Source of the DNA: Puerhibacterium puerhi
Lineage (GTDB): Bacteria > Actinomycetota > Actinomycetes > Actinomycetales > Cellulomonadaceae
DNA length: 64,000 nucleotides
Assembly (NCBI RefSeq): GCF_009846865.1
Contig: NZ_WUWN01000004.1
Location: 62,001-126,000 of the forward strand
Direction: 5' to 3'
This document shows, piece by piece, positions 3,329 through 23,860 of the stretch (position 1 is the stretch's first letter; every line of letters begins with the position of its first letter). The position numbers were made by a program, and so were the translations under genes. The notes beneath the pieces are model-generated. The model ran no database searches and had not been told where the DNA came from. It saw only the letters and a program-made list of their open reading frames with translations.

Positions 3329-3394
3329 CCGTTCCGGGTCCCTGGTGGTCCGAGACAGCGGGGGCTGTCTCGGACCACCAGGGACCCGGAACGG
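3329..3394. terminator. 31-bp perfect inverted repeat, terminator-like
   Basis: The arms 3329-3359 and 3364-3394 are perfectly complementary over 31 bases with a GGGG loop. It begins 8 bases behind the cupin stop codon and lies 28 bases upstream of the -10 box of the AraC-type gene. A 10-base piece of the arm (agggacccgg) occurs again at about 3407-3416. Position suggests a terminator; the arm length is far above what a terminator needs. Confidence 0.6.
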
Positions 3395-3434: not shown

Positions 3435-3869
3435 ATGGCCATGGAGCGCGCCGAGGCGCAGCGCCTGCGGGACATCACCGTGATCCGCCGCGTGCGGGAC
3501 CGGATCGACCGGGAGTACGCCCAGCCGCTCAACCTGGAGGAGCTCGCCAAGGGCGCGCACATGTCGTCCGGCCACCTGAGCCGGGAGTTCCGCCGCGTCT
3601 ACGGCGAGTCCCCGTACGCCTACCTGATGACCCGGCGCATCGAGCGGGCGATGACGCTGCTGCGCCGCGGCGACCTCAGCGTCACCGACGTCTGCTTCGA
3701 GGTGGGCTTCTCGTCGCTGGGCACGTTCAGCACGCGCTTCAGCGAGCTGGTGGGCGTGCCGCCCAGCGTCTACCGCCGCGACCACTCCCAGGCCGCCGCG
3801 GGCATCCCCCCGTGCCTGGCCAAGCAGGTCACCCGACCGGTCAGGAATCGAGAAGCACCCGCGCGCTGA
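3435..3869 (+). CDS. AraC-family regulator consisting of the DNA-binding domain only
   Basis: The 144-residue protein is almost entirely an AraC/XylS DNA-binding domain with two helix-turn-helix units. The first is around LNLEELAKGAHMSSGHLSREF, and the second is around SVTDVCFEVGFSSLGTFSTRF, followed by the family signature GVPPSVYRR. There is no N-terminal effector domain. A TAGGGT -10 box at 3422-3427 precedes the ATG by 7 bases, indicating a leaderless transcript; an alternative ATG lies two codons in. The gene is followed after 20 bases by a VOC-family gene, a common pair in actinobacteria. The VOC gene has its own -10 box. Regulation of that neighbour is inferred. Confidence 0.85.
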   Translation: MAMERAEAQRLRDITVIRRVRDRIDREYAQPLNLEELAKGAHMSSGHLSREFRRVYGESPYAYLMTRRIERAMTLLRRGDLSVTDVCFEVGFSSLGTFSTRFSELVGVPPSVYRRDHSQAAAGIPPCLAKQVTRPVRNREAPAR

Positions 3870-4300: not shown

Positions 4301-4337
4301 CCCGGGTCACGGACGACGGCGCACCGCCGCGGGACGC

Positions 4338-4376
4338 GACGGCGCCCGCCCCCGGGTGTCGGGGACGGGCGCCGTC
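4338..4376. terminator. Hairpin terminator between convergent genes
   Basis: Arms 4338-4352 and 4361-4376 pair over 15 bases with one bulged A on the right arm and a short loop. It lies between the VOC gene (ending 4300) and the convergent lipoprotein gene (ending 4390), so it can serve both. Confidence 0.65.
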
Positions 4377-4389
4377 GGCGTCGGTGACG

Positions 4390-7373: not shown

Positions 7374-7458
7374 TTACCGGGCGGTAGGCATGACTCTACA
7401 CGGGCCGCGCTACCTACTGAACATATGGTCGGTAGTTGACTTACTTACCGGGTGGTCA
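7374..7458. promoter_or_regulatory. Operator cluster of TACCGnnCGGTA type in the divergent GH43/transporter promoter
   Basis: Within the 201-base space between the GH43 and symporter genes I see TTACCGGGCGGTAG at 7374-7387 and TTACCGGGTGGTCA at 7445-7458. Between them are half-sites (CTACC at 7410-7414 and CGGTAG at 7430-7435). The sites share the pattern TACCG-2-CGGTA with the perfect palindrome at 11810-11823 before the GH42 gene. They are spaced so that both divergent promoters would be covered. The adjacent TetR protein is the obvious candidate to bind them. Confidence 0.7.
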
Positions 7459-7537
7459 TATTTTCGTCCGGCCGGACGACGCCCGTCCGGCGAGGCCTGG
7501 AGCGAAGCCGCTCCCCTGCGAACCAAAGAAGGTGCCC

Positions 7538-8887
7538 ATGGACACGCAGACCGACGCGGTCCCTCCGGCCGGCGCATCGGTGCCCGTCGCCGCAGACCCT
7601 GCGAGCACGGTCACGCCGGCCACGAACGCGGACGACCTCGCCCCCGACACCGGCCAGCGCTTCGACCGCGCCCGGACGACCCGCTTCGGCGTCGGCTTCT
7701 TCGCCTACGGCCTGCTGTGGATCATCGGCCTGCAGATCGTCGCGGCCGTGCTGCTGCCCCAGCGCCTCAAGGACATCGGCGTCGCCTCCCCCGAGACGCT
7801 GCTCGGCTCGATCAGCGCCGTGACCGCGATCGTCTCCCTGGTCTCGAACCTCGTGTTCGGCAACTTCTCCGACCGCACGCGCAGCCGCTTCGGCCGCCGC
7901 GCGCCGTGGATCCTCGCGGGCGGCATCCTCGGCGGCGTGACCCTGCTGGCCATCGGCCTGCTGTCCGACGCCACGCTCATCACGATCGTCTACTGCGTGT
8001 GCATGGTGGGCCTCAACATGATGCTCGCCCCGGCCGTCGCGGTGCTCAGCGACCGCGTGCCCGGCAAGCTGCGCGGCACCATGTCCGCCTTCTACGGCGC
8101 CGGCCTGTCCGCCGGTGCCCCGCTCGGCTCGCTCGTGGGCACCCTGTTCATCGGCGCCACGGGCGCCTCGGTGCCCGGGTTCGTCCTGGCCGGCGCGCTC
8201 ATGGCGTTCTCCGCCGTGCTGGCCCTCGTCATCTGGCCCCGCGAGCGCTCGGCCCGCGACCTGCCGCCCGCGCCGTCGACCCTCAAGGACGTGCTGGCCA
8301 GCTTCCGCCCGCCGCGCAACGCGCCGGACTTCTACCTGGCCTTCGGCGGCCGCCTGTTCATGCTGGTCAGCTACCAGATGATCATGGCGTACCAGCTGTA
8401 CATCGTGCAGGACCACCTGGGCCAGACGACCGAGGAGTCCGCCGCGACCATCGCGACGATGTCGGTCATCCTGCTGGTCGTCTCGCTCGTCGGCGCCGTC
8501 GTCGCCGGCCCCGTCTCCGACGTCATCGGCCGCCGCAAGCTGCCGGTCGTGCTGTCCAGCGTCATGTTCGCCGTCGGCATCGCGATGCCGTGGATCATGC
8601 CCACCACCCTGGGCATGTACCTGTTCGCCGGCATCGCCGGCCTCGGCTACGGCATCTACACCTCGGTGGACCAGGCCCTCAACGTGGACGTGCTGCCGAA
8701 CCAGGAGGAGGCCGGCAAGGACCTCGGCATCCTCAACCTGTCCACCACCGCCGGCCAGACCGTGGGCCCGCTCATCACCTCGTCGCTGGTCGTGGCCACC
8801 GGCAGCTACTCGCTGGTCTTCCCGGTCGCGATCGTCGCCGCGCTGCTCGGTGCGCTTGCCATCGTGCGGATCAGGTCGGTGCACTGA
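7538..8887 (+). CDS. MFS/GPH-type sugar transporter
   Basis: The 449-residue membrane protein has about 12 TM helices, starting after a 45-residue polar N-terminus. The loop FGNFSDRTRSRFGRRAPWIL is the signature of the glycoside-pentoside-hexuronide:cation symporter branch of the MFS. The ATG at 7538 follows AAGAAGG with good spacing; an in-frame start at 7436 would place the operator inside the gene. Divergent transcription with the GH43 gene and the shared operators point to uptake of xylosides, arabinosides or galactosides that the neighbouring hydrolases then cleave. Confidence 0.85.
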   Translation: MDTQTDAVPPAGASVPVAADPASTVTPATNADDLAPDTGQRFDRARTTRFGVGFFAYGLLWIIGLQIVAAVLLPQRLKDIGVASPETLLGSISAVTAIVSLVSNLVFGNFSDRTRSRFGRRAPWILAGGILGGVTLLAIGLLSDATLITIVYCVCMVGLNMMLAPAVAVLSDRVPGKLRGTMSAFYGAGLSAGAPLGSLVGTLFIGATGASVPGFVLAGALMAFSAVLALVIWPRERSARDLPPAPSTLKDVLASFRPPRNAPDFYLAFGGRLFMLVSYQMIMAYQLYIVQDHLGQTTEESAATIATMSVILLVVSLVGAVVAGPVSDVIGRRKLPVVLSSVMFAVGIAMPWIMPTTLGMYLFAGIAGLGYGIYTSVDQALNVDVLPNQEEAGKDLGILNLSTTAGQTVGPLITSSLVVATGSYSLVFPVAIVAALLGALAIVRIRSVH

Positions 8888-8925
8888 CCGGTGCCGACCG
8901 GCGCTGACCGGCGCTGACCGGCGCG
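8886..8925. repeat. Tandem repeat, four 10-bp units
   Basis: Units 8886-8895, 8896-8905, 8906-8915 and 8916-8925 follow the pattern GACCGGCGCT with one to three changes. The array starts inside the TGA stop codon of the symporter gene. Confidence 0.75.
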
Positions 8926-8977
8926 GTGACAGCGTGCCGAGCGCGTGACGGCAGCGCGGTGACCGCATGACGGCCGC

Positions 8978-9063
8978 GCCGAGCGCGTGACGCCGCGCGA
9001 CGGCCACGCGCTGAGTGCCGGCCGAGCGCGTGACGCCGGGCGACGGCCACGCGCTGAGTGCCG
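8978..9063. repeat. 43-bp direct tandem duplication
   Basis: Units 8978-9020 and 9021-9063 differ by a single base, and a third partial copy begins at 9064 (GTCGAGCGCG). It lies in the non-coding space after the symporter gene. Confidence 0.8.
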
Positions 9064-9165
9064 GTCGAGCGCGCACCGGCGGACCGCGCTCCTTCCGACG
9101 CCGTCGGTCGGGCCTCGTGCCCGCCCGGCGGCGTCGTCGTGCGACGGCTGCGGGGGCCGCACCAC

Positions 9166-9233
9166 TCTGTTCGGTGATTCGTTGGCTGATCGGTGATCCG
9201 GATCGCCGATCAGTCAACGAATCACCGAACAGA
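9166..9233. repeat. Dispersed 68-base palindromic element, copy 1
   Basis: Two 34-base arms are complementary with two mismatches and meet at GATCCGGATC, leaving no real loop. An almost identical element lies at 23791-23860. It is AT-richer than its surroundings and carries no coding capacity. It resembles REP-type intergenic palindromes rather than an insertion sequence. Confidence 0.85.
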
Positions 9234-9512
9234 CGACCGAGGGGCGCCGGCATCCGAGGCATGGGCAGGTCCGGCCGGCCTCGCTGATCCCGAAGAACGG
9301 GGCCGGCTCGCTGGCCCCGACGGGCGGGGCCGGCCGGCGTCGCTGACCCCGACGGGCGGGGCCGGCTCGCTGGCCCGTCCGATCGCCGTCCTGCCCCCTG
9401 CCCGCTGAGATCGGCACTTCGTCGTGAGGTCGGCACCTCGAGCTGCCGAGCTCGCGACAAACTGCCGAGCTCGCCCGCCGGCCCCACCGGCAGCCGCGGG
9501 TTCGGACGGACG

Positions 9513-9550
9513 ACGACGGCCCGTCCCGCAGCTGCGGGACGGGCCGTCGT
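9513..9550. terminator. Perfect 19-bp inverted repeat, terminator
   Basis: Arms 9513-9531 and 9532-9550 are perfectly complementary and centre on CAGCTG. It lies between the convergent symporter and GH42 genes, nearest to the GH42 3' end. Confidence 0.7.
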
Positions 9551-9669
9551 GCGTCGCCCAGGGCCGCCGAGCGCCTGGGCGGCCGGTTGCTAAGGGCGGC
9601 CGGTCCGAGCCGCCGGGCCGCCGGGGCCGCCGGGGCCGCCGGGCCGCCGCGCGCCCAGGCGCCCAGGCG

Positions 9670-11727
9670 TCAGCCCTCGAGCACCACCAGGTCCCAGGCG
9701 CCGACCGTGAGCGGCTGCCCCTGCTCGACGGCGTCGCCGGTGAGCACCGACGTGCCGGCCACCGGGGCGTCCAGGGTCACGGCCTCGCCGGAGTAGTTGA
9801 GCAGGTAGGTCAGCGGGTTGCCGCGGCCGTTGGTGCCGCGGCGGACGGCCACGCGCGGCGCCGTCGTCGCCAGCTCCTGCGGCCACTCCCACAGCCCGGC
9901 GTCCCGCACCAGCCGCGCCAGCACCCCGCGCAGCGTCTCGGGGTCGGTCATCGTGGCGAGGTAGGTCGCCGTGCCGGCGCCGAACGCGTTGCGCACGACG
10001 GCGGCGTACCGCGACCACGCCGGGTGGTCGTAGGTGGCGAGCACCTCGGCGCCGTCGGTGGGCGTCAGCAGCTCGAGCACCGCCTTCGCCTCCGGCGCCG
10101 CCTCCCCGCCGGCCAGCTCCGCGAGCGCGCCGCGGAACGCCAGCCGCGCGCCGTCGGGCGTGGAGAACTGGTTGTAGGTGGCGCCGAAGACGTCGGTGAG
10201 GCCGTGCGGGGCGCGGTCGTGCCAGACGGTGACGTGCTCGTCGGCGACGGCGGTGCGGAACGTGGAGACCAGGTGGCCGCCCTGCTCGACGTAGGCGCGC
10301 AGCGCGTCGATCGTGGCCTGCGGCGCCGCGTACAGCGCCGGGGTGAGCACCATGGCGTAGTGGGCGAGGTCCTGCGCGTCGAAGGGCACGAAGTCGACCT
10401 CGACGTTGAGCTCGAACAGCGCGTCGTAGACCCACCGCAGCACGTCGTTGTAGCCCACCGACGGGCCGTAGGCGCCCTCGACGAAGCCGCGCTCCAGCGT
10501 GAACCACCTCAGCGCGGTCAGCGCCTCGTTGCTCACCATCACCGCGACGCGGTTGGCCTTGCGCAGCCCGGTGAACGACGCGGCGTGCCGCTCGACCTCG
10601 GCGCCGAAGACGCCGGCCTCCTCGTACGTCGGGTTCGACTCGAGGTCGTGGCTGAGCAGGCCCTTCCAGTACGTCTCGAAGGAGTTGTGGATGGAGTGCC
10701 AGTGCCAGTACATGACGCCGAGCGCGCCGCTGGCCAGGTGGCTGTACGCCTGCAGGCGCAGCTGGCCCGGGTAGGGCAGCCAGCCCATCTGGCCCTGCGC
10801 CTGGGTCTCGAGCACCAGGTAGTTGGCGCCGCCCTTGATCGAGCGGGTCATGTCGCCGCCGAAGGCGATCTCCTTGCCCGTCAGGCGCGACTGCGTGGGG
10901 TGGTAGATGTCCGTGCCGGCCAGGTCGACGGCGCGGGCGGCCCTGAAGTGGTCGACGGCGGGCTGCAGGCCGTACGACCAGCCCGGGGCCCAGTCGAAGT
11001 CGAAGTTCTGGGTGACGAACTGGTCGTCGCGGGCGTACTCGCGCACGATGCCGGCCTGCCAGGCGAGGTACTCCTCGACCAGTGTGCGGCGGTACTTGTC
11101 GAACTCCGCGGCGAGCGAGCCGTTGACGGTGCCGCGCACGTCCGGGAAGTCCTCCCAGGCGTCGATCCGGTTGGACCAGTAGTCGAGGCCGAACGTGCGG
11201 TTGAGCGCGGCCAGGTCGCCGTCGAACTTCTGCTGGAGGTACTTGACGAACCCGGCCTGCACCGAGCGCGAGGCGGCGTCGTAGTACTTGGTCTCGTTGT
11301 CGACCTGGAAGCCGATCACGTGCTCGCGGTGGGCCGTGTGCTCCAGCAGCCGGCGGATCACCCGCTCGCCGTAGAACCGGTAGGCGGGGTTCGTGATGTC
11401 CATGATCTGCCGGGCGCCGTAGCGCGGGGCGTCGGTGCGGTCGGTGACCGCCAGCACGTCCGGGTGCGCGGCGACCAGCCAGGTGGGCACCGCGTAGGTG
11501 GGCGTGCCGACGATGACCTTGCGGCCGAACGTCTCCGCGGCGTCGAGCGCGCGGTCCACGTGCGTGAAGTCGAAGACGCCGGGCTGCGGCTCCAGGGTGC
11601 TCCACGTCGACTCGGCGATCCGGATGACGTTGAGGTGCGCGTCGCGCATCATCGCCATGTCGGTCTCGATCCGGTCGGTCGGCATGTACTCGTCGTAGTA
11701 CGCCGCTCCGAACAGCACTGCGTCCAC
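9670..11727 (-). CDS. GH42 beta-galactosidase
   Basis: The 685-residue protein has the full GH42 architecture. The catalytic TIM barrel comes first (FGAAYYDEYMP at 7-17), with the acid/base Glu145 in GFQVDNETKYYD and the nucleophile Glu307 in NYLVLETQAQG. Next are the trimerisation domain (about 390-600) and a small C-terminal beta domain. No signal peptide is present, so it acts on imported beta-galactosides. The start is GTG (11725-11727) behind a GAAGGG-type site. A perfect CTACCGATCGGTAG operator about 85 bases upstream links it to the TetR protein encoded at 5034-5813. Confidence 0.92.
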   Translation of the reverse strand: MDAVLFGAAYYDEYMPTDRIETDMAMMRDAHLNVIRIAESTWSTLEPQPGVFDFTHVDRALDAAETFGRKVIVGTPTYAVPTWLVAAHPDVLAVTDRTDAPRYGARQIMDITNPAYRFYGERVIRRLLEHTAHREHVIGFQVDNETKYYDAASRSVQAGFVKYLQQKFDGDLAALNRTFGLDYWSNRIDAWEDFPDVRGTVNGSLAAEFDKYRRTLVEEYLAWQAGIVREYARDDQFVTQNFDFDWAPGWSYGLQPAVDHFRAARAVDLAGTDIYHPTQSRLTGKEIAFGGDMTRSIKGGANYLVLETQAQGQMGWLPYPGQLRLQAYSHLASGALGVMYWHWHSIHNSFETYWKGLLSHDLESNPTYEEAGVFGAEVERHAASFTGLRKANRVAVMVSNEALTALRWFTLERGFVEGAYGPSVGYNDVLRWVYDALFELNVEVDFVPFDAQDLAHYAMVLTPALYAAPQATIDALRAYVEQGGHLVSTFRTAVADEHVTVWHDRAPHGLTDVFGATYNQFSTPDGARLAFRGALAELAGGEAAPEAKAVLELLTPTDGAEVLATYDHPAWSRYAAVVRNAFGAGTATYLATMTDPETLRGVLARLVRDAGLWEWPQELATTAPRVAVRRGTNGRGNPLTYLLNYSGEAVTLDAPVAGTSVLTGDAVEQGQPLTVGAWDLVVLEG

Positions 11728-11809
11728 GTCGCCACCCTTCGTCGCGCGATGCCCCGGGCGGCTCGTGGCGCCGCCGGGCGGCCCGCCGTCGGGCCGGCCA
11801 CCACTCTAC

Positions 11810-11823
11810 CTACCGATCGGTAG
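11810..11823. promoter_or_regulatory. Perfect TACCGATCGGTA operator before the GH42 gene
   Basis: CTACCGATCGGTAG is a 14-base perfect palindrome, flanked by further CTAC and AGATA bases. It has the same half-site and spacing as the sites at 7374 and 7445. Confidence 0.7.
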
Positions 11824-11904
11824 ATAAAGCCCGCAGCCGGTCGCCGGAGAGCTTGCCGCGACGAGCGTCTCGCGGAGCTCGACCACCTTGTACTCGAACA
11901 TGGC

Positions 11905-12756
11905 TCAGCTCGTCGCCGTCGCGGCCCGGAGCCACGGCAGCAGCACCGGCAGCACGGCGTCGGGCTGCATGGCGCGCAGGTGGTCGGCGCCCGGTACCAC
12001 CGCCACCTGCCAGCCGCGCGCCTCGAGCTCGGCCCGGTGGGCACGCACCGCGCCCGCGATGACCACGCGCACGCCGCCCCAGCGCGGCCCGTAGTCGATG
12101 TCGTCCCGCTCGCCGACGAACGCCAGGCGCGGCACGGTGACGCGGTCGAGGGCGGCGGCCTCGTCGAACCCGCGCAGCGACTCGTAGAGCGTGACGTACT
12201 GCTGCGTCTGCTCGGGGCTGAGCGTGACCTCGACGGAGTCCCAGTCGCCGGGCGCCACCTCCCGCCGGGGCGGCGGCGACTGCCGGTAGGCCACGGCCAT
12301 GCGATGGGTGGCGCGGGTGACCTCGAGCATCGCCGCGTACGGGCCGCCGAGCGGCGGGAAGCCGCCCATCGCCAGCCCCGTGAGGCGGTCGGTGCGCAGG
12401 GCGAGCTGCAAGGCCGCCAGCGCCAGCCAGGAGTATCCGTAGCAGGCGAACCGGTCGACGCCGGCCGCGTCGGCGACGGCCAGCAGGTCGGTGGCCACGG
12501 CGTCGGCAGTGAGCGTGAGCGGCTTGGGGTGGGCGGCGAGGTGACCCTCGTAGTCGGCAGCGACGATCCGGAAGCCCGCGTCCGCGAGCGCCGTGGCCAG
12601 CGTGCGGCCGGGGTTCGGGTCGGCGCCCCAGGCGCGGGCCTGCTCGGCCGCCGCGCCCTCGACGACGGCGGTGCCGACCGGCAGCAGGACGGCGGGACCG
12701 TCGCCGAGCACGGCGACGTCGACGGCGGCGCCGTCGTGCAGCGTGGCGGTGGGCAT
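11905..12756 (-). CDS. Alpha/beta-hydrolase
   Basis: The 283-residue protein follows the alpha/beta-hydrolase fold. The nucleophile is probably Ser109 in CYGYSWLALAAL; the family elbow G-x-S-x-G is changed to GYSWL, with Leu in place of the last Gly. The acid is Asp218 or Asp219 in VGERDDIDYG and the base is His259 in PGADHLRAM. An oxyanion HG motif is not evident. It is divergent from a TetR gene, with 44 bases between starts that carry a palindrome, so it is probably induced by a substrate of that regulator. Esterase, lactonase or another hydrolase activity cannot be decided. Confidence 0.75.
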   Translation of the reverse strand: MPTATLHDGAAVDVAVLGDGPAVLLPVGTAVVEGAAAEQARAWGADPNPGRTLATALADAGFRIVAADYEGHLAAHPKPLTLTADAVATDLLAVADAAGVDRFACYGYSWLALAALQLALRTDRLTGLAMGGFPPLGGPYAAMLEVTRATHRMAVAYRQSPPPRREVAPGDWDSVEVTLSPEQTQQYVTLYESLRGFDEAAALDRVTVPRLAFVGERDDIDYGPRWGGVRVVIAGAVRAHRAELEARGWQVAVVPGADHLRAMQPDAVLPVLLPWLRAATATS

Positions 12757-12783
12757 GGGTCCTCCTCTGCGGCGACGAAACGC

Positions 12784-12797
12784 TATACACTGTAAGG
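12784..12797. promoter_or_regulatory. Operator/promoter overlap between hydrolase and TetR genes
   Basis: The AT-rich stretch TATACACTGTAA contains the near-palindrome TACACTGTA and overlaps -10-like sequence for both divergent genes. It is the only non-GC-rich sequence in this 44-base gap and is the likely TetR site. Confidence 0.55.
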
Positions 12798-12800
12798 ACT

Positions 12801-13553
12801 ATGGGAACCACCGACAAGAGCCCCGCCTCGGACGCCGAGGCACACGTGCGCCGGCTGTGGCGCCACCGCGGCGCCGCTCCCCCGTCCCCGCGCCGCGGCC
12901 CGCGCCCGCAGCTCGCGCTGGACGCCGTGCTGGACGCCGCCGTCGCGCTGGCGGACGCCGAGGGGCTCGCCGGCGTCTCCACGCGCGCGGTCGCCGCGCG
13001 CGTCGGCGTCAGCGCGATGGGCCTGTACCCCTACGTGGGGTCCAAGGAGCAGCTCGTCGCGCTCATGCAGGACCACGCGTCGGTGATGCCGGCCTGGGAC
13101 GACGCGGGGCCGGCGCTCGCCGACGACGTCGAGGCGTGGGCGCTGCGGCTGTTCGACCTGCACGTGGCCCACCCCTGGCTCGCCGAGGTGCCGTGGGCGC
13201 AGGCCTCGGGCGGCCCGCAGGAGCAGGACTGGCTGGAGCGCCTGCTCGCCGTCCTGGAGCGCCACGGCATCGCGCCGCCGCGCCGCGCCGCCGTCGTCAC
13301 CGCGCTGTACGCGACGGTGCGCGCGTCGGCCCAGACCGCCGCCGCGTACCGCGGCATGGCCGACGGCGAGGCTGCGGCGTGGCGCGAGCGGGCGGCGGCG
13401 ACGCGGCGGCTGGTCCCCGACCTCACCGAGCGCTACCCACGCTCGACGAGCCTGCCGCCCGTGGCCGACGACTGGCGGGAGGCGCCGCGGGAGGGCGTCC
13501 GGCAGACGGTGCGGCTGCTGTGCCGCGGGCTGGAGGCCGACGGCGGCGCGTGA
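12801..13553 (+). CDS. TetR-family regulator (TetR_C type)
   Basis: The 250-residue protein has a basic N-terminal extension, then a TetR helix-turn-helix at about residues 40-85 (VSTRAVAARVGVSAMGLYPYVGSKEQLVALM). A long C-terminal helical domain has the AHPWLAEVPW pattern seen in TetR_C-type regulators. It faces the alpha/beta-hydrolase gene across a short AT-rich operator. The ATG lies about 9 bases behind the -10-like TACACT, so the transcript may be leaderless and autorepressed. The ligand is unknown. Confidence 0.82.
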   Translation: MGTTDKSPASDAEAHVRRLWRHRGAAPPSPRRGPRPQLALDAVLDAAVALADAEGLAGVSTRAVAARVGVSAMGLYPYVGSKEQLVALMQDHASVMPAWDDAGPALADDVEAWALRLFDLHVAHPWLAEVPWAQASGGPQEQDWLERLLAVLERHGIAPPRRAAVVTALYATVRASAQTAAAYRGMADGEAAAWRERAAATRRLVPDLTERYPRSTSLPPVADDWREAPREGVRQTVRLLCRGLEADGGA

Positions 13554-13563
13554 GCCGCGCCGG

Positions 13564-13914
13564 TCACGGCCCGGCGAGCCGGTCCACCTCGGGGAGCGCC
13601 GCGGCCGCCGTCTCGGCGAAGGTGCTGTGGTCGACCGAGTGCAGGCGCCCGTCGCGGACCCACAGCTCGAGCCGGCCCAGCGCCTCGGCGCCGTCGACGA
13701 CGTCGAGGGTGGCGATCCGGCCGCCGCCGTGCAGCGGGATGCGGAGGCACGCGTCGCCGTCGTGGTCCTTGCCGCCCCAGCGCGCGGTCGCCAGCTGCGC
13801 GCGGGCCTCCGGCGCCCCCGGGCCGCGCGCCGGCGCAGAGGCGCTCGAGCAGGGCACGCTCGTGCGCCGTCAGCGGCGCACCGGGTGGGCAGCACCGCCG
13901 CGAGGGTCCTCCAT
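13564..13914 (-). pseudogene. Frameshifted small conserved gene
   Basis: Three short frames together resemble one small protein. ATG at 13914 opens MEDPRGGAAHP, the next frame holds LTAHERALLERLCAGA, and a third holds APEARAQLATARWGGKDH onward to the stop at 13564 (about 95 residues). Removing one G from the run of five G near 13820 joins the last two frames smoothly; another shift near 13875 is needed to reach the ATG. The pattern LTAHERALLERL followed by ARAQLATARW reminds me of small DUF6984-like proteins, which is uncertain. Either it is a decayed gene or the sequence has homopolymer errors. Confidence 0.45.
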
Positions 13915-14029
13915 GGCCCGATCCTCCCGGGCGCCGGCGTCCGACCACCCGCGGCTCGGCCGCGCGCCGGCGATACCGTGGGACGAGCACCCCGCGCAGC
14001 AGCCGGGACGCCCCCACCGAGGGACCACG

Positions 14030-15010
14030 ATGACGGCCACCGACGCCCGCACCCGCGAGTACGACCGCTTCGGCCCGTGGATCGACGAGGTGCGCGGCGG
14101 CGACGACGTGCCGCGGCTGTACCGCGACCACCCGATCGACTTCGCGTCGGCGCAGCTGGTGCTGAAGGTGCCGCGGAACATCGCGCGCCGGGACGCGACG
14201 CCGGAGATGGACCTGTACGACCACCTGCTCGTGGTGGAGCCGGCTCGGCTGGTGGTCCTCAGCCGCGGCGGCGACGGACCAGGAGCACGGCACGCGGCGG
14301 GCGCCGCGGGCTACGGCGTCCGCGGCGTGGCGTTCCACCAGGTCGCGACCGTCCGCCACACGGTCGACCTCCTGGACGGCAGGCTCACCGTGCGCACGAC
14401 GGACGGCGCGGCGCTCACGGTGCGCTACAACGCCTCCGCCCGGGCCACCGTCGACCGGCTCGTGGACCACCTGCGCGTCGCGACCGCCGTGGCCGGGCCC
14501 ACCACCACCGGCTGGGCCCTGCTGGCCGCCGCCCGCGCCCACCCGCCGGCGCCGCTCGCCCTCGGCCGCGACGACACGGCGCTGGCCGGCGACTTCCGCG
14601 AGGCGTCGCGCCCGCGCCCGGACCTGGGCCTGTGGGCGTGGCACGGCCGGCAGCGCGTCGCGCCGTCGCGTCCGGGCGTGCTCGGCGCCCGGCGCCTGTC
14701 GCACGCCCTGTCGCCCATGACATTGCACGGCGCGGTCGTGGCCGGCGACGCCGACACGATGGAGGTCTTCGGCCGGCACGACTGGCTCGTCCGCGGCACC
14801 AGGCCCGTGCACTCGGCGTCGCGGCTCGTGGTCCCGCTGAGCACGCCGGAGCGGCTCCGCCTCGCCCCGCACCCCGCCTACGACGGCGCGGCGTCCGTCG
14901 AGATCACGGCCGGCGCGGCGACGACCGCCGTCACCGTGCCCGTCGGGTCGTCGGCCTACCGCCTCTTCGCCGCGGCGGCCGCCGGCGGCCGGCTCGGCGC
15001 CGCCCGGTGA
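14030..15010 (+). CDS. Conserved hypothetical protein
   Basis: The 326-residue protein begins MTATDARTREYDRFGPWIDEV and has no signal peptide. It has no clear TM segment in its first 300 residues, only mildly hydrophobic stretches. It is soluble, rich in beta-prone segments and Arg, and repeatedly alternates short hydrophobic and polar runs (LVVEPARLVVLSRGGDG, RLTVRTTDGAALTVRYN). This suggests a beta-rich domain with PH-like strands near residues 50-150. I do not recognise a named family. A TACCGT box at about 13974 is a plausible -10 with a 50-base leader. The TetR gene at 15058 follows after 47 bases. Confidence 0.7.
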   Translation: MTATDARTREYDRFGPWIDEVRGGDDVPRLYRDHPIDFASAQLVLKVPRNIARRDATPEMDLYDHLLVVEPARLVVLSRGGDGPGARHAAGAAGYGVRGVAFHQVATVRHTVDLLDGRLTVRTTDGAALTVRYNASARATVDRLVDHLRVATAVAGPTTTGWALLAAARAHPPAPLALGRDDTALAGDFREASRPRPDLGLWAWHGRQRVAPSRPGVLGARRLSHALSPMTLHGAVVAGDADTMEVFGRHDWLVRGTRPVHSASRLVVPLSTPERLRLAPHPAYDGAASVEITAGAATTAVTVPVGSSAYRLFAAAAAGGRLGAAR

Positions 15011-15057
15011 GGGCCGACGGAGCCCGGGGCCGGGCCCCGGCTGGGTAGGTTGGCACC

Positions 15058-15702
15058 GTGACGGCAGCGGAGGATCCCCGCCCGCGCGCGCGCGGCTACG
15101 CGAAGGGCGCGGCTCGCAGGGCGCAGATCCTGGACGAGGTGATCCGCATGGTCGCCGAGAAGGGCGTCGACGCGTCGTCGCTCCGGTCGGTGGCGGACTC
15201 GCTGGGGATCTCGCACGCCGCGCTGCGGCACTACTTCCCGTCCCGGGACGAGCTGCTGGTCGCGGTGTACGACGAGCACGAGGGGCGCCAGCGCGGCGCG
15301 GGCGGGCGGCCCGGCTCGGCCGTGGGCGACATGCGCGACAGCGCCGAGCGCAACCGGTCGGTGCCCGGGCTGGTCCAGCTCTACACGGTGCTCATGGCGG
15401 ACGCCGCCCAGGAGGGGCACCCGGTCACGCGGGAGTTCGTGCGCGCCAGGTTCGCCCGCGTGCGCGCCAAGCTCGCCGACCTCGTGCGCGAGGACCAGGA
15501 GGCCGGGCGGATCGACCCCGAGATCGACGCGCGCGACCTGGCCTCGCTGGCCATCGCCGCGTCGGACGGCCTGCAGGTGCAGTGGCTGCTGGACCCCGGG
15601 GCTGTCGACGGCGCACGGGTCCTGAGCCTGCTCGAGCGCCTCGTGCCCGCGTCGGCGCCCGCGGCGCCTCCCGCGGCGCCCGCGCCGTCGTCGGACGACT
15701 GA
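15058..15702 (+). CDS. TetR-family regulator
   Basis: The 214-residue protein has a TetR helix-turn-helix at about residues 20-65 (ASSLRSVADSLGISHAALRHYFPSRDELLVAVY). A helical C-terminal domain ends in an Ala/Pro-rich tail. The GTG start at 15058 lies 6 bases behind TAGGTT (15046-15051), so the message is probably leaderless. It converges with the oxidoreductase/isomerase operon and may regulate it, although the operators there look LacI/cre-like. A strong terminator follows. Confidence 0.82.
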   Translation: MTAAEDPRPRARGYAKGAARRAQILDEVIRMVAEKGVDASSLRSVADSLGISHAALRHYFPSRDELLVAVYDEHEGRQRGAGGRPGSAVGDMRDSAERNRSVPGLVQLYTVLMADAAQEGHPVTREFVRARFARVRAKLADLVREDQEAGRIDPEIDARDLASLAIAASDGLQVQWLLDPGAVDGARVLSLLERLVPASAPAAPPAAPAPSSDD

Positions 15703-15703
15703 C

Positions 15704-15745
15704 GCGACCAGGGGCGGGACCGTGACCGGTCCCGCCCCTGGTCGC
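15704..15745. terminator. Perfect 18-bp hairpin between convergent genes
   Basis: Arms 15704-15721 and 15728-15745 are perfectly complementary with a six-base loop. The hairpin lies between the TetR gene (ending 15702) and the oxidoreductase gene (ending 15755) and probably serves both. Confidence 0.85.
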
Positions 15746-15754
15746 CGTCGTCCG

Positions 15755-16867
15755 TCAGGCGGACGTCGCGGCGGCCGGGTCGAAGTCCTCCGGCAGCGGC
15801 GGGATCGCGTCGATGCTCGAGGGCACCTCGACGGCGCTCCCGGACTGCGCGGCGTCCCGGATCGCGAGCAGCACGTCGAGGACGTGCAGCGCGACGGCGC
15901 CGGAGGCCCGCTCCGGCCGCCCCTCGCGGATCGCGCGCGCCAGCTCGACGACGCCCGTCCCGCGGCCCCAGGTCGAGCCCGTCGCCGGGATCGTCGTCGG
16001 CCCGCCCTGGCCGTAGCGCCAGAGCGTCGAGTCGCCCTCGAAGGTGTTCGGGTCCGGCAGCGAGATCGTGCCGAGCGTGCCGTTGATCTCGACGAAGCCG
16101 GCGCGCGGCAGCGCGTGCTGGAAGGAGAACGTCGACTGCGCCGACTGCCCGCCGCGGAACTCGATGAGCGCCGCGTGGTGCGTCGGCACCTCGACCGGGA
16201 ACGTCTCGCCCGCCCGCGGGCCGGAGCCGATCGTGCGGCGGTCCTGCGACTTCGACGACACGGCCTGCACCCGGGCGGCGGCGCCGAGGGCGTGCACGAG
16301 GGTCGTGACGTAGTACGGGCCCATGTCGAACAGCGGGCCGGCACCCGTGGCGTACAGGAAGTCGGGGTCCGGGTGCCACGCCTCGGGGCCCGGCACGTGG
16401 AACATCGTCGTCGCGGTGAGCGGCTCGCCGATGTCGCCGCGGGCGATGGCGCGCAGCGCCGTCTGGATGCCCGCGCCGAGGACGGTGTCCGGGGCGCAGG
16501 CCACGCGCACGCCCTGCGCCGCCGCGGCCTCGAGGAGCTCGACGGCCGACGCGCGGTCGGTGGCGAGCGGCTTCTCGCTCCACACGTGCTTGCCGGCCGC
16601 GACGGCGCGCTGACCGATCTCGGTGTGCACGGCCGGGACGGTCAGGTTGACGACGATCTGGATGTCGTCGCGCGCGAGCAGCTGCTCGGCGGTCCCGTGC
16701 GCCGGCACGCCGTAGGCCTCGGCCTGCGCCCTGGCCCGGTCGAGCAGCAGGTCGGCGACCATGCGGACCTCGACGTCGGCGAACTTGGTCAGGTTCTCGA
16801 GGTACTGGGTCGAGATGTTGCCGGCACCGATGATGCCGACCCCGACCGGGGTGCCCAGCCGGCTCAC
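15755..16867 (-). CDS. Gfo/Idh/MocA-family oxidoreductase
   Basis: The 370-residue protein has an N-terminal Rossmann fold starting VGVGIIGAGNISTQYLENL (dinucleotide-binding GxGxxS/A). The family EKP motif follows at about residue 100 (HVWSEKPLATD), and the C-terminal alpha/beta domain holds the substrate site (GPLFDMGPYYVTTLVHALG). Such enzymes oxidise or reduce sugars and inositols with NAD(P). The GTG start overlaps the isomerase stop as GTGA, so the two act together, probably in catabolism of a sugar or sugar acid. The substrate is unknown. Confidence 0.87.
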   Translation of the reverse strand: MSRLGTPVGVGIIGAGNISTQYLENLTKFADVEVRMVADLLLDRARAQAEAYGVPAHGTAEQLLARDDIQIVVNLTVPAVHTEIGQRAVAAGKHVWSEKPLATDRASAVELLEAAAAQGVRVACAPDTVLGAGIQTALRAIARGDIGEPLTATTMFHVPGPEAWHPDPDFLYATGAGPLFDMGPYYVTTLVHALGAAARVQAVSSKSQDRRTIGSGPRAGETFPVEVPTHHAALIEFRGGQSAQSTFSFQHALPRAGFVEINGTLGTISLPDPNTFEGDSTLWRYGQGGPTTIPATGSTWGRGTGVVELARAIREGRPERASGAVALHVLDVLLAIRDAAQSGSAVEVPSSIDAIPPLPEDFDPAAATSA

Positions 16868-17664
16868 TTGTCGTTCTCCTGCAGCCAGGCGAGGGACTGC
16901 GCGATGCCCTCGAAGACGTCGCCCTTGTAGGCGTCGAACTCCACGACGCGGATCGCGTCCGGGGCGGCGGCGAGGATCGACGGCACGTCGACGTCGCCCT
17001 GCCCCGCGGGGGTCTGGTTCTCGAACGCGGCGCGCAGGGCGTCCGGCACCACCAGCGCGCTCTCGCTCGACGGCAGCACGGTGGCGATGTCGCCCGAGAC
17101 CTCGCCGTCCTTGACGTGGATCGCCACGACGCGGTCGCCGAGGGAGCGCAGCACGGCCGGAGCGTCGGCGCCGCCGACGGTCGCCCAGAACGTGTCGACC
17201 TCCAGGACCGCCTCGGGGGCGAGGTGCTCGGCGAAGAGCTCGAAGACCGAGCGGCCGTCGACCTTGTTCGTGAACTCCCACTGGTGGTTGTGGTAGCCGA
17301 AGCGCAGGCCGTGCGTGGCAGCCCGGGCGGTGAGCTCGTTGACGCGGTCGGCGATCTTCTTGGCGTCGTCGGCGGTCTGCCAGCGGTCCGTGGGGACGAA
17401 CGGGTCGATGACGATCCCGATCCCCAGGCGCGCCGCGGCGTCGAAGACGACGTCGGGGTCGGGGGCGTCGATGACGGCGGCGTGGCCGGACGGGGCCTGG
17501 AGCCCGGTCGCGGCCAGCGCGCGCTCGAAGTCGGCCACGCGCTCGACGAACGCGTACGGCTCCACGTGCTGGTAGCCGATCTCCCGGACGCGCGCGACGG
17601 CGGCGTCGAGGTCCTCGGCGATGGCGTCGCGCAGCGAGTACAGCTGCACGGAGGTGACGGGCAT
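16864..17664 (-). CDS. Sugar phosphate isomerase/epimerase (xylose-isomerase-like TIM barrel)
   Basis: The 266-residue protein is of the AP endonuclease 2/IolE-like fold. It starts with VTSVQLYSLRDAIAEDLDAAV and has the metal-site elements FGYHNHQWEF, LEVDTFWATVGG and VAIHVKDGE. Metal ligands are expected at the Asp/Glu/His of these strands. The ATG at 17664 follows AAAGGAG at good distance, and a longer frame upstream lacks support. It is the first gene of an operon with the oxidoreductase and should interconvert a keto or aldo sugar ahead of or after that enzyme. Confidence 0.85.
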   Translation of the reverse strand: MPVTSVQLYSLRDAIAEDLDAAVARVREIGYQHVEPYAFVERVADFERALAATGLQAPSGHAAVIDAPDPDVVFDAAARLGIGIVIDPFVPTDRWQTADDAKKIADRVNELTARAATHGLRFGYHNHQWEFTNKVDGRSVFELFAEHLAPEAVLEVDTFWATVGGADAPAVLRSLGDRVVAIHVKDGEVSGDIATVLPSSESALVVPDALRAAFENQTPAGQGDVDVPSILAAAPDAIRVVEFDAYKGDVFEGIAQSLAWLQENDK

Positions 17665-17732
17665 GGCGAGCTCCTTTGGTCTGACGTCCTTCACTTCCGC
17701 CGGTTTCGACACAGAAGTCCGGCGGGATCCGA

Positions 17733-17782
17733 TGAAAGCGCTGCCAGCCTAGCGCCAAAACTACACAGTGGATAGTTTCTTG
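17733..17782 (-). promoter_or_regulatory. LacI/cre-type operator and second palindrome before the isomerase operon
   Basis: TGAAAGCGCTGCCA at 17733-17746 fits the TGNAANCGNTNNCA consensus of LacI-family and CcpA-type operators exactly. Overlapping its left side on the minus strand is TAGGCT, a -10 candidate. Next to it, GCGCCAA...TTGGCGC (17752-17785) encloses AAACTA and TAGTTT half-sites separated by nine bases. No LacI-family gene occurs in the window. Confidence 0.6.
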
Positions 17783-17877
17783 GCGCCCCCGGATCGGCCC
17801 GTCCGCCCGCGGGTGGACGCCCGGCCGCGGGCCGCTCCCCCCACGGCCTGACGACGCCGCCGCGCCGCTGCGGTCGG

Positions 17878-18651
17878 ATGGGCACCGTGACCTCCTCCGC
17901 GCCCCACCCAGCACCCCACCCAGCTGCCCGGCCCGCCGCACCGGGGCCGCACACCCCTCCCCCCGCAGCTCCGGATCCCGTCGGGGTTCGTCGCGGTCTG
18001 CGGACCGTCGCGCGACGAACCCCGACGGGATCCGACCGCGGAGGTCGCCCCGCACCGGCCGTCCTCGCCGTCGCCGTCGCCGCGGGCCTGGGCGTGGGTG
18101 CCCTCACCTCGCTCGGCCAGACGCTGCTGGGCGGCACGGCGTTCGCCGGCCTGACCAACGCGGTCAGCCCGTGGCTGGTGGCGCCGTTCCTGGTGGGCGC
18201 GCTCGCGCGGCGCGGCGGGGTCGCGGCGCTGGCGGGCCTGCTCGCGTGCGCGGCGGAGGTGGCCGGCTACTACGTGACGGCGGACCTGCGCGGGTTCCCC
18301 GTCGGCGTCGGCGCGATCACGCTCTGGGGGGTGGCCGGCGCGGTCGGCGGGCCGGTGTTCGGCTGGGCCGGCCGGCAGTGGCGGGCCGGGACCGGCCGCC
18401 TGCGCGGGCTCGGTGCGGGGCTGCTCGTGGGCTGCTGGCTGGCCGAGGCGCTCGTCACCTACCTGGCGGTGCTCGGGTACGTCGACGACGCCGTCGTGTT
18501 CGCCGTCGTCGCCGCGGTGCTCGCGGTCGCGCTGGGCCGGCCCGGCCGCCGGCTGACCGCCGTGCTCGGCTGGGGGGCGGTGGCCACCGCCGTCGGCACG
18601 GCGGGCTTCGCGGCGCTGCACCACGTGCTCGGCGGAGGCTCCCCGGCCTAG
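17878..18651 (+). CDS. DUF6518-like integral membrane protein
   Basis: The 257-residue frame has a Pro/Ala/His-rich N-terminus of about 60 residues and then six or so TM helices (from PAVLAVAVAAGLGVGALTSL onward) typical of the small DUF6518 membrane family; that family call is tentative. The role is unknown. A perfect 24-bp inverted repeat (17973-18035) lies inside the N-terminal coding part, residues about 32-53. The true start may therefore lie after it, or the repeat may have entered the gene. The gene is convergent with the partner-switching cluster. Confidence 0.65.
   Translation: MGTVTSSAPHPAPHPAARPAAPGPHTPPPAAPDPVGVRRGLRTVARRTPTGSDRGGRPAPAVLAVAVAAGLGVGALTSLGQTLLGGTAFAGLTNAVSPWLVAPFLVGALARRGGVAALAGLLACAAEVAGYYVTADLRGFPVGVGAITLWGVAGAVGGPVFGWAGRQWRAGTGRLRGLGAGLLVGCWLAEALVTYLAVLGYVDDAVVFAVVAAVLAVALGRPGRRLTAVLGWGAVATAVGTAGFAALHHVLGGGSPA
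17973..18035. repeat. Perfect 24-bp inverted repeat inside a coding region
   Basis: Arms 17973-17996 and 18012-18035 are perfectly complementary with a 15-base loop. The sequence forms a terminator-strength hairpin, but it lies near the 5' end of an open frame. The arm encodes VGVRRGL-type residues on one side and RRTPTGS on the other, outside the conserved membrane domain. Confidence 0.8.
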
Positions 18652-18714
18652 GACGCCGAGGGCCCAGGTCGCCGAGGGCCCAGGTCGCCGAGGGTCTAGG
18701 CCGCCGAGGAGCCG
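18651..18714. repeat. Tandem repeat, four 16-bp units
   Basis: Units at 18651, 18667, 18683 and 18699 share the pattern GGTCGCCGAGGGCCCA with few changes. The array starts at the last base of the TAG stop of the DUF6518-like gene and ends 10 bases before the convergent HATPase gene. Confidence 0.78.
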
Positions 18715-18724
18715 GGCCGCACCG

Positions 18725-19210
18725 TCACCAGGTGAACGTGGCCCAGACGACCTTGCCGCCGTCGGGCTGCGGCCGCCACCCCCAGGTGCCGGACACGGCG
18801 TCGATGATGTGCAGGCCGTGTCCCCCGGGCAGCCCGGCGCGGCCCGACCGCGGCTGCGGCACCGACGCGCTGGCGTCGTGCACCTCCAGGCGCAGGTCGC
18901 CGGCGTGGCTGCGGACCGTCACGACGACGGTGCGGGTCCCGGCCGCGTGGCGCACGGCGTTGGTCACCATCTCGCTGGTGGCGAGCACCACGGCGTCGAC
19001 CGTCCGCGCCGGCGCACCGGCCGCGCGCGCCTGCTCGGTGACCCAGTGGCGCGCCTCGGCGATGGAGGCGGGCGTCGCGGGCAGCGAGCGGGTAGCAGGC
19101 AGCGAGCGCGTCACGTCGACGGGCTCGCGGGCTGGCACGCGAGAGACGGTAGTCGCCCTGGGGCTCGTCGGCCTCTCGGACGGCGACGGGCGTCCGGCAT
19201 CCACGGTCAT
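18725..19210 (-). CDS. HATPase-domain serine kinase/anti-sigma factor (RsbW-like)
   Basis: The 161-residue protein carries a GHKL ATPase domain of the RsbW/SpoIIAB group. The N box is VVLATSEMVTNAVRHA, the G1 box is LEVHDASAS and the G2 box is GGHGLHIIDAVSGTWG. Such proteins bind a sigma factor and phosphorylate a STAS antagonist. The first 45 residues are a low-complexity Thr/Arg/Pro segment with a repeated RSLPAT. The start ATG overlaps the stop of the upstream phosphatase gene (ATGA at 19207-19210). This suggests that the two antagonistic activities are made in fixed ratio. Confidence 0.87.
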   Translation of the reverse strand: MTVDAGRPSPSERPTSPRATTVSRVPAREPVDVTRSLPATRSLPATPASIAEARHWVTEQARAAGAPARTVDAVVLATSEMVTNAVRHAAGTRTVVVTVRSHAGDLRLEVHDASASVPQPRSGRAGLPGGHGLHIIDAVSGTWGWRPQPDGGKVVWATFTW

Positions 19211-21381: not shown

Positions 21382-21715
21382 CTGTGCCCTCCTCAGGCTG
21401 ACGGGGCCGCGCCCGTCTCGTCGCACATCATGCACGGTCCGGCTGGGCCGGTCGCCCGGAGCCGGCGGTCGCCCGCCGGCTCGGCCCCCACGCTCGGCCG
21501 CCGCGCTGGGCCACCAAACTCGGCCGCCACGCTCCGCCGGAGCTCGGCCGGCGCGGCGCCCGCGACCTGGCAGGAGCCGCGCGGGCGCGGCGCCGCTCCG
21601 GATGCGGCGGCGCCGCTATCGTGGGATCGTCCACACGACCTTGCCACAGCGCGTCGGCGGCTCCTCTCGTTCTGACGCACGGCAACCCTCCGACCGTCAT
21701 GAGAACGATCACGCT

Positions 21716-22180
21716 GTGACACCGCAGACAGATCCCCTGGAGACCCCGGAGACCGACGCCGGTCTTCCGCGGACCCGCCCGCCCGGGCGCTACCGGCTCG
21801 TCGAGCGCTGGAACCTCGACTCCTTCGCTGAGCTCACGCGCATGCGCGCGGGTCTCGCGCCGATCCTGCGCCCGAACGACGGCGAGGGCGTCGGGCTGGC
21901 GCAGACGCCGGAGAAGGTGGTCCTGGTCGCCTCGGAGCTCGCGACCAACGCGCTCGAGCACGGCCTGCCGCCGACCATCGTCACGCTGCTGGCCGACGAC
22001 ACCTCCTGGCTCCTGGACGTCGCCGACCATGACCGGGGCTCCGTGCCCGTGTACGCCGGCGAGCGCATCCCGGGCGCCGGCGGGCTCGGCCTGCACCTGG
22101 CGCGCACGCTGGCCCTCGACGTCGGGTGGTACGTCACCGAGGAGCACAAGCACATCTGGGTCACGTTCCCGATCGACTGA
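21716..22180 (+). CDS. Second HATPase-domain protein (RsbW-like)
   Basis: The 154-residue protein has a GHKL ATPase fold with N box (KVVLVASELATNALEHGL), a G1-like box (LLDVADHDRGS) and a G2 box (GAGGLGLHLARTLALDVGW). It differs from the protein at 18725 in sequence, so it is a paralogue rather than a duplicate. The GTG start (21716) was chosen because the conserved part begins shortly after; the long upstream frame is antisense to the phosphatase gene. It is divergent from that phosphatase and convergent with the STAS gene. An ATP-dependent kinase or anti-sigma role is inferred. Confidence 0.82.
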   Translation: MTPQTDPLETPETDAGLPRTRPPGRYRLVERWNLDSFAELTRMRAGLAPILRPNDGEGVGLAQTPEKVVLVASELATNALEHGLPPTIVTLLADDTSWLLDVADHDRGSVPVYAGERIPGAGGLGLHLARTLALDVGWYVTEEHKHIWVTFPID

Positions 22181-22215
22181 CGTCGGCGGGCGGCGGGGCG
22201 CCGCGCTGCGGCGGG

Positions 22216-22810: not shown

Positions 22811-23803
22811 ATGAGGCGCCTCGTCGGCTGGTGGGACGACCACCAGGTCGCCCTGTACCTCGCCGCCATCGGCCTCGGCGCCCTGGCGGGGCTGGCGGCG
22901 CCGCGCGCCGCGCCGGCGCTCGAGCACGCCATCACCCCGGTGCTCGCGCTGCTGCTGTTCGCCACGTTCCTCGGGGTGCCGCTGGTCGAGGTGGGGCGCG
23001 CGTCCCGCGACGTCCGGTTCCTGGCCGCGGTGCTGGCGGCGAACTTCGTCGCGGTGCCGGCGGTCGTGCTGGGGCTGTCGCGGCTCGTCGCCGACGACCC
23101 GGGCCTGCTGCTGGGCGTGCTGCTGGTGCTGCTGACGCCGTGCGTCGACTACGTCATCGTGTTCACCGGCCTGGCCGGCGGGGCGCGCGCCCGGCTGCTC
23201 GCGGCCGCGCCCCTGCTGATGGTGGTGCAGGTGCTCCTGCTGCCGGTCTACCTGTGGCTGTTCGCCGGGGCCGACGTGGTCGCGGTGGTGGACGTCGGGC
23301 CCTTCGTCGAGGCGTTCGCGCTGCTGATCGTCCTGCCGCTCGCCGGCGCCGCGGCGGTGCAGGGGCTGGCGCGCCGGCACCGGGCCGGCCGTGCGGTCGA
23401 GGGCGCGGCGGCGGGGGCCATGGTGCCGCTGATGATGGCGACGCTCGCGGTGGTGGTCGGCTCGCAGGTCGCGGCGGTGGGCTCCCGCGTCGTCGAGCTG
23501 GTGCGCGTCGTGCCCGTCTACGTCGCGTTCGCCGTGCTCGCCGTCGGCGTCGGCGCGCTGGTCGGACGCGCGGCACGACTGGACGTGCCCGGCCGGCGCG
23601 CCGTCCTGTTCTCCGCCGCGACCCGCAACTCGCTGGTGGTGCTGCCCCTGGCCCTCGCCCTGCCGGCCGCGCTCGACCTCGCGCCGCTCGCGGTGGTGAC
23701 GCAGACGCTCGTCGAGCTCGTCGCGATGGTCGTGCTCGTGCGGGTGGTGCCGGCGGTGGTGCGCGACGGCGGGGTGCGGGCCGACTCCTCGTCCGTTCGG
23801 TGA
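22811..23803 (+). CDS. ACR3/bile-acid-sodium-symporter superfamily transporter
   Basis: The 330-residue protein has about ten TM helices in the two-fold repeat of the BASS/ACR3 superfamily. The unwound-helix motif LLTPCVDYVIVFTGLAGG, with Cys, is close to the Cys-containing motif of arsenite permeases, and FSAATRNSLVVLPLALALP is the matching motif of the second repeat. Arsenite or another anion export is plausible; a different organic anion is possible. The stop codon lies inside the left arm of a palindromic element. No arsenic reductase or arsenic-type ArsR gene is adjacent; the metal sensor 850 bases downstream is CmtR-like. Confidence 0.72.
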   Translation: MRRLVGWWDDHQVALYLAAIGLGALAGLAAPRAAPALEHAITPVLALLLFATFLGVPLVEVGRASRDVRFLAAVLAANFVAVPAVVLGLSRLVADDPGLLLGVLLVLLTPCVDYVIVFTGLAGGARARLLAAAPLLMVVQVLLLPVYLWLFAGADVVAVVDVGPFVEAFALLIVLPLAGAAAVQGLARRHRAGRAVEGAAAGAMVPLMMATLAVVVGSQVAAVGSRVVELVRVVPVYVAFAVLAVGVGALVGRAARLDVPGRRAVLFSAATRNSLVVLPLALALPAALDLAPLAVVTQTLVELVAMVVLVRVVPAVVRDGGVRADSSSVR

Positions 23804-23860
23804 TTCGTTGGCTGATCGGCGATCCGGATCGCCGATCAGCCAACGAATCACCGAACAGAC
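23791..23860. repeat. Dispersed 70-base palindromic element, copy 2
   Basis: Arms 23791-23825 and 23826-23860 are complementary with one mismatch and meet at GATCCGGATC. Over the central 60-odd bases it matches the element at 9166-9233 with about two differences. The TGA stop of the transporter gene at 23801-23803 is part of the left arm. Confidence 0.88.

Follow-up and report, generated by a model that had tools for sequence, protein, structure and literature searches.

Background

The systems closest to the repeats reported here are the REP and REPIN elements and their RAYT (TnpA-REP) genes, also called 'REPtrons' (PMC2817692, PMC3116915, PMC3733652). In the arrangement described by Nunvar and others, the gene lies between two palindromes, solo copies are found elsewhere and gene and palindromes co-vary (PMC2817692). 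As far as these accounts go, the repeats change around orthologous genes that stay in place, inverted pairs of repeats form hairpins and copies number over a hundred. Dispersed palindromes that have no known mobiliser are a standing puzzle, an example being the CGTC-type REPs, which are given as 20-40 bp long and 'apparently lack a dedicated transposase' (PMC3733652).

On the protein side, the AbiEi antitoxins of type IV toxin-antitoxin systems (S. agalactiae AbiEi, M. tuberculosis Rv2827c) combine a winged helix with a nucleotidyltransferase-like domain, have inverted-repeat DNA adjoining their gene and reportedly bind inverted repeats in the promoter of that gene (PMC7319586). Vsr and homing endonucleases such as I-Bth0305I provide a second point of comparison. 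Homing endonucleases such as I-Bth0305I are labelled EDxHD.

We analysed a stretch of 64,000 nucleotides (hereafter the window, C34:62001-126000) of the 3.9-Mb draft genome of Puerhibacterium puerhi (G000, 94 contigs). It holds dispersed palindromes that, like REPs, have relatives flanking a gene on both sides and solo copies elsewhere; here too the repeats vary along with the protein, they differ around orthologous genes of conserved position, and inverted arms form hairpins. Unlike in the REP/RAYT systems, the enzyme is AbiEi-like and Vsr/homing-endonuclease-like rather than HUH/Y1, the palindromes are about 70 bp long with two half-sites per arm and no GTAG or CGTC tag, and the copies number in the tens. 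We do not file this palindrome-nuclease unit as a REPtron because the defining RAYT enzyme was not found; at most it may work like one. With the CGTC-type REPs it shares palindromic repeats but neither their length nor their sequence.

The partner protein shares the two AbiEi domains and the adjoining inverted repeats with the AbiEi antitoxins, but a C-terminal domain of nuclease fold is added, one gene and no toxin gene stands between the palindromes, and repeats are also found past the gene and at other places in the genome. It shares its C-terminal fold with Vsr and I-Bth0305I, whereas here this domain is joined to an AbiEi-like part and has palindromes on both sides. A search of the open-access literature found, by title, no publication joining dispersed palindromes with an AbiEi/Vsr-type gene. 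We consider it probable that the elements of the window are solo members of a family of palindromic repeats with a single partner gene, whose nuclease may spread them.

Results and discussion

Two near-identical palindromes in the window

The initial annotation had reported two nearly identical palindromes, at 9166-9233 and 23791-23860. Both are real and their ends were right to within one or two bases of the 70-bp frame given in Table 1. In a repeat search of the window they form a direct-repeat pair of 69 nt at 96 % identity, and copy 2 is also recovered as an inverted repeat without spacer whose 35-nt arms are 97 % complementary. Both copies have 35-bp arms that meet without spacer at a GATCC/GGATC centre. 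At the composition of the window, palindromes with at least 32 of 35 pairs are expected about 1.5e-8 times per 64 kb, so that chance alone should yield none like copies 1 and 2. As single strands they fold at -36.2 and -39.9 kcal/mol respectively (z -12.5 and -13.5). Rfam gave no match above gathering score in window 8500-24500.

The two copies had been described as lying behind plus-strand transporter genes. Those genes are indeed there, one of the MFS and one of the SBF type, but according to a crude gene finder both copies stand between convergent genes, and copy 2 overlaps its transporter gene. The MFS gene ends 277 bp before copy 1, and a GH42 beta-galactosidase gene lies 435 bp from this copy on the other side; copy 2 covers the final 13 bases of the SBF-type gene, provides its stop codon and is separated by 106 bp from an acetyltransferase gene. 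A third and decayed family member, recognised by the model and absent from the initial annotation, stands 170 bp from copy 1 and has about 50 % identity to the main type and a weaker hairpin.

Table 1 Palindromes of the family in the window, with adjacent genes (window positions unless a contig is named)
Feature	Position	Strand	Evidence or remark
Solo 70-bp palindrome, copy 1	9165..9234		model score 83.3 bits, repeat search, fold
Copy 1 half-sites	about 9165-9180, 9184-9199; mirrored 9200-9215, 9219-9234		half-site layout
Solo 70-bp palindrome, copy 2	23791..23860		model score 90.9 bits, repeat search, fold
Copy 2 half-sites	about 23791-23806, 23810-23825; mirrored 23826-23841, 23845-23860		
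Third, decayed family member (CGGCACTTCGT type)	9405..9474 (C34:71405-71474)		model, 54.8 bits, E 2.4e-10
SBF-type transporter gene	22811..23803	+	stop codon TGA 23801-23803 inside copy 2
MFS transporter gene, upstream of copy 1	7436..8887	+	context
GH42 beta-galactosidase gene, convergent with the MFS gene	9670..11727	-	context

The window also contains other repeats. An unrelated strong palindrome with 31-bp arms and a gggg loop is found at 3329-3394, 8 bp past a predicted gene end. Two strong hairpins between convergent gene ends are possible terminators, one at 15704-15745 (1 and 9 bp from the gene ends) and one at 4337-4377 (36 and 12 bp). A 43-bp unit is repeated in tandem (98 % alike) at 8978-9063, within the long stretch ahead of copy 1, and another repeat pair, 87 % alike, occupies 9263-9317 and 9322-9376.

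A repeat family of regular length and phase

From two copies in 64 kb the initial annotation had predicted many in the genome, and this prediction was borne out. A 24-base arm searched with up to 3 mismatches has 23 forward and 23 reverse matches in the draft, and its reversed control has none. All but two of these 46 matches pair into 22 full palindromes, the exceptions being one at a contig end and one stray half. At E 0.01 the covariance model R2 finds 31 places, including one partial match.

The near-exact arm pattern is limited to 2 of 221 genomes of the taxonomic family, which are the two genomes of the genus (G000 and its companion G001). More distant relatives were sought with R1, a structure-aware model built from 35 copies of the window's genus. 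Of the 220 genomes searched in the taxonomic family, 50 have such relatives, and these represent 10 of its 25 genera. At a stricter cut-off, R2 detects the palindrome in 18 of the 396 genomes of the order; the taxonomic family accounts for 14 of these. A search for mobile contexts gave 0 matches in phages, 0 in viral contigs and, among plasmids, a single weak one, to a 900-kb Collinsella record. A 20-mer match in a Methylococcaceae MAG was set aside as sequence without the mirror arm.

Family elements are 70 bp long with few exceptions (69-72 bp). In all 23 elements tested, the arm matches itself best at an offset of 19 bp: each arm consists of two direct half-sites, and the whole palindrome has four (forward, forward, reverse, reverse). 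Half-sites are 0.755 alike within an element and 0.615 between elements (0 of 5000 shuffles), in a set of elements chosen by likeness to the genus model, which favours its layout. When palindromes beside the partner gene are found blind to sequence, 19 is again the commonest offset, some have 20 and some are indistinct. This regularity of length and phase suggests a protein that would measure the palindrome.

One gene between matched palindromes

The window's genome has one unit, on contig C18, in which palindromes at 19991-20060 and 21359-21428 flank a gene at 20262-21233 that encodes 323 aa. Window copies 1 and 2 are each 0.957 identical to either of these palindromes, and the solo copies of the genome are 0.857 to 0.986 like them (median 0.95, n=20). 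Loci compared across genera likewise have one homologous gene of about 320 aa between two palindromes; in the loci read it is the single gene there, with no toxin gene between the palindromes.

When the taxonomic family was searched with the alignment of the partner gene at E 1e-20, 176 of 220 genomes had a homologue, which makes homologues commoner than the R1 palindromes. Some genomes (G165, G181) have palindromes by the model and no homologue at that threshold. The window's genome has a second homologue (L272, G000:C61:578-1504) with an in-frame stop and no palindrome adjoining.

To what extent the gene is bracketed was scored at the 30 best loci, one per genome, with R2 within 500 bp: palindromes stand on both sides at 25, on one side at 4 and on neither at 1. 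Six of these loci are seeds of the gene alignment, and without them 19 of 24 are bracketed on both sides. The one locus lacking R2 matches (L270) has palindromes of a different sequence on both sides, and R2 has 0 matches in 16 other loci (52.9 kb). Many of 20 paralogues and 20 distant homologues are bracketed by other palindrome sequences of similar size and phase.

We compared left and right palindromes taken blind to sequence. Their similarity is at least 0.68 at 48 of 70 gene loci (23 of the 30 best, 14 of the 20 paralogues and 11 of the 20 distant homologues), corresponding to 48 of the 54 loci where both sides have candidates and to 42 of 64 without the seeds. The same level is seen in 3.1 % of 3604 cross-locus pairs and at 0 of 51 control genes. 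No matched pair is present at 22 of the 70 loci, 9 of which belong to the 20 distant homologues.

Over the 48 matched loci, palindrome divergence follows protein divergence with a Mantel r of 0.56 (0 of 2000 permutations), a correlation that is confounded by shared descent, as are its values for the N-terminal part (0.58) and the remainder (0.49). Within genomes, ten paralogue pairs have a protein identity of 0.47 to 0.68 and a palindrome similarity of 0.54 to 0.71, the latter lying under most left-right values of single loci (median 0.86). Solo palindromes from genomes other than the window's are nearest a tested unit of their own genome in 26 of 69 cases (mean 2.9, maximum 15 with shuffled labels); part of the units of these genomes entered this comparison, in which G140 is a clear miss. 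Taken as a whole, these sequence statistics in our view establish that palindrome and gene are paired.

The partner protein resembles AbiEi and a nuclease

Pfam matches of the protein are weak. Among 59 members, this database at E 0.01 reports AbiEi_4 in 24, REase_MTES_1575 in 7, AbiEi_1 in 5 and DUF559 in 4; the PADLOC AbiEi profile reaches E values down to 1.4e-13 among 3 proteins, and a protein-profile sequence search of PDB chains gave no match.

In an AlphaFold2 model (pLDDT 92.2), residues 2-189 align with S. agalactiae AbiEi (6y8q; Z 11.8, 165 aligned, rmsd 5.8), residues 194-306 with the catalytic domain of I-Bth0305I (3r3p; Z 10.7, 97 aligned, rmsd 3.1) and residues 191-303 with Vsr (1cw0; Z 9.5, 107 aligned, rmsd 2.7). 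Rv2827c is the sole Foldseek match under E 0.001. The protein models as an AbiEi-type N-terminal part, with winged helix and nucleotidyltransferase-like domain, joined to a C-terminal domain of the Vsr/I-Bth0305I fold. Eleven residues, E197, D228, E239, D241 and K245 among them, are invariant in 70 of 70 homologues. From the homologue alignment A5, eleven sequences with an internal stop were left out, and two were swapped for their full-length duplicates. On the model, the partner is likely a DNA-binding nuclease. Because AbiEi and Rv2827c are reported to bind inverted repeats, it is plausible by analogy that the partner protein binds the palindrome.

Conservation, gain and loss of copies

All 13 copies found in the companion genome of the same genus (G001) sit at loci of G000 copies, so that movement between the two species appears to be slow or old. 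In 12 ortholog pairs (the truncated pair L090/L117 was left out) identity is 0.907 for the elements and 0.57, which equals the random level (0.57), for the 80-bp flanks. The figure for non-orthologous copies is 0.897, and in 10 of 12 cases the ortholog is closer than the mean non-ortholog. These values indicate that copies are kept to a common sequence, either through constraint or through homogenisation.

Changes mirrored in both arms number 12, against 4.9 expected, and double-sided changes in 34 distinct copies number 25, against 9.4 in shuffles. Template-switch repair of palindromes could also mirror arm changes, and mirroring alone is thus no proof of function.

Copies also differ between genomes. 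At four loci of the window's genome (L071, L083, L084 and L089) both flanking genes are present in G001 and the element is absent; one flank was found there for L078 and L081 and none for L082 (window copy 1) and L085. There is no exact empty site among L071, L083, L084, L089 and the first copy of L087, where G000 and G001 differ by more than the element. The G001 counterpart of L089 (L122) has a different strong palindrome with 28-bp arms, 25 of 28 arm bases being like the palindrome at window 3329-3394. By eye, the G001 counterpart of L087 has a similar-looking remnant.

Variation is also found at one gene pair of genus g9. Here G141 and G142 carry the palindrome-gene-palindrome unit, G147 holds a homologue flanked by palindromes of another sequence, and G136 has a single family palindrome and no gene (L324, G136:C8, 1300-1369). 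Eight genomes (G140, G135, G148, G143, G137, G150, G152 and G151) have both flanking genes, and the 114-198 bp that separate the aligned stretches contain no hairpin. The gap at this gene pair is 159 bp in G000, and 6 of the 17 genomes searched have wider gaps of 0.9 to 2.4 kb, five of which were read in part.

These observations bear on the possibility that the palindromes are static binding sites and that the AbiEi-like protein controls its own gene and serves as a nucleoid or regulatory factor without contributing to their spread. Such a function would agree with the own-promoter binding described for AbiEi and Rv2827c (PMC7319586, as far as that account goes), with the conservation of ortholog copies between random flanks and with the shared positions of all G001 copies. 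It does not predict a matched palindrome downstream of the gene as well, copies mostly behind stop codons rather than at promoters, a nuclease-like site that is kept invariant, the absence of copies in G001 at the four loci above or the variation at the g9 gene pair. We consider this explanation rather unlikely.

Genomic placement and signs of constraint on DNA

Gene contexts, taken from a crude codon-usage gene finder, were scored for 91 family copies including the bracketing ones. The copies lie between convergent genes (37), in tandem contexts (30), between divergent genes (11), within predicted genes (12) or at an edge (1). In tandem contexts 26 of 30 are closer to the stop than to the next start, and the median distance to a stop codon is 18 bp (n=67).

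Placement of this kind is what would be expected if the palindromes terminated transcription in both directions or formed hairpins at mRNA 3' ends and were conserved as RNA structures, and the window has nine strong hairpins, of which all eight outside predicted genes stand behind a gene end. An RNA stem should favour G.U over A.C mismatches, yet on the transcribed strand of 47 tandem-context copies of exactly 70 bp the two are found 47 and 49 times. Divergent locations, which account for 4 of the 22 G000 copies in addition to the family figure above, do not suit a terminator either, and no T-run follows window copies 1 and 2. Furthermore, a terminator would need no near-fixed length of 70 bp, no repeated half-sites and no bracketed cognate gene. 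The G.U/A.C balance and the divergent copies point to constraint at the DNA level and speak for palindromes that would be constrained as DNA rather than as an RNA device; a terminator function is quite improbable. A polarity of the element was also considered and rejected: an asymmetry at column 30 orients 14 of 22 copies, and in tandem contexts 4 agree and 4 disagree with transcription.

The bases 1-6 outside the element have no fixed tag in 113 copies. Over the same 113 copies there is no target duplication of consistent length and none at 8 or 9 bases, the scan giving small excesses at some lengths and offsets, such as 9 against 3.7 (4 bases, offset -3) and 2 against 0.5 (5 bases, offset 0); a duplication may have decayed in old copies. 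The REP/MITE-type character given to the element in the initial annotation holds for its dispersed, mostly intergenic, multi-copy and REP-like placement and is not supported for the enzyme. That a classical REP/REPIN or MITE is mobilised in trans by a RAYT or another DDE/HUH transposase would match copy number, extragenic placement and palindromic shape, but is very improbable given that Y1_Tnp (PF01797) has 0 matches in the G000 draft in a Pfam search that was positive in 5 of 14 control genomes, that no insertion sequence with these ends is present among the 46 arm matches, that target duplications are inconsistent and that the bracketed gene comes from another family, AbiEi/Vsr-like and of Vsr-type fold.

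A possible mechanism of spread

We hypothesize that the palindrome spreads through the action of the nuclease encoded by its partner gene. The AbiEi part would bind the repeated half-sites, four per palindrome, and such binding is likely. The nuclease part may then cut or nick DNA at or beside the palindrome, and repair or copying after the cut would both spread the palindrome and keep copies and arms alike. The solo copies of the window would be products of this cut-and-repair spread, tolerated mainly behind stop codons, as REPs are.

It is conceivable, and in our judgement an evenly balanced question, that this constitutes a second and independent route to REP-like genomes. The proteins would form a large actinobacterial family, selfish or domesticated, in which the AbiEi part steers a Vsr/homing-type nuclease to palindromes composed of four half-sites. 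Each paralogue would own a palindrome sequence and seed or homogenise its solo copies by cut-and-repair, a form of homing into short palindromes that involves no HUH transposase. If a nuclease unrelated to RAYT does the same job, then REP-like repeats have more than one origin, and a gene family with only weak AbiEi, REase and DUF559 matches gains a testable function. The 48 natural protein-palindrome pairs from 70 loci may be used to read out how DNA specificity is set.

Some loci have palindromes in close pairs. A tblastn search between such pairs found a near full-length remnant of the nuclease gene, in two pieces, at L205 and none at L072, L087, L192 and L215.

Other loci have half-sites beyond the usual four. 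At L118 (G001:C38, about 1701-1808) one palindrome continues into two more tandem half-site units of 19 bp, which may capture a stage of arm growth. Loose extra half-sites together with a short tandem repeat (GTCTGTTCGGCAG) are found next to the palindrome at L087 (about 1734-1800) and L116 (about 3469-3498).
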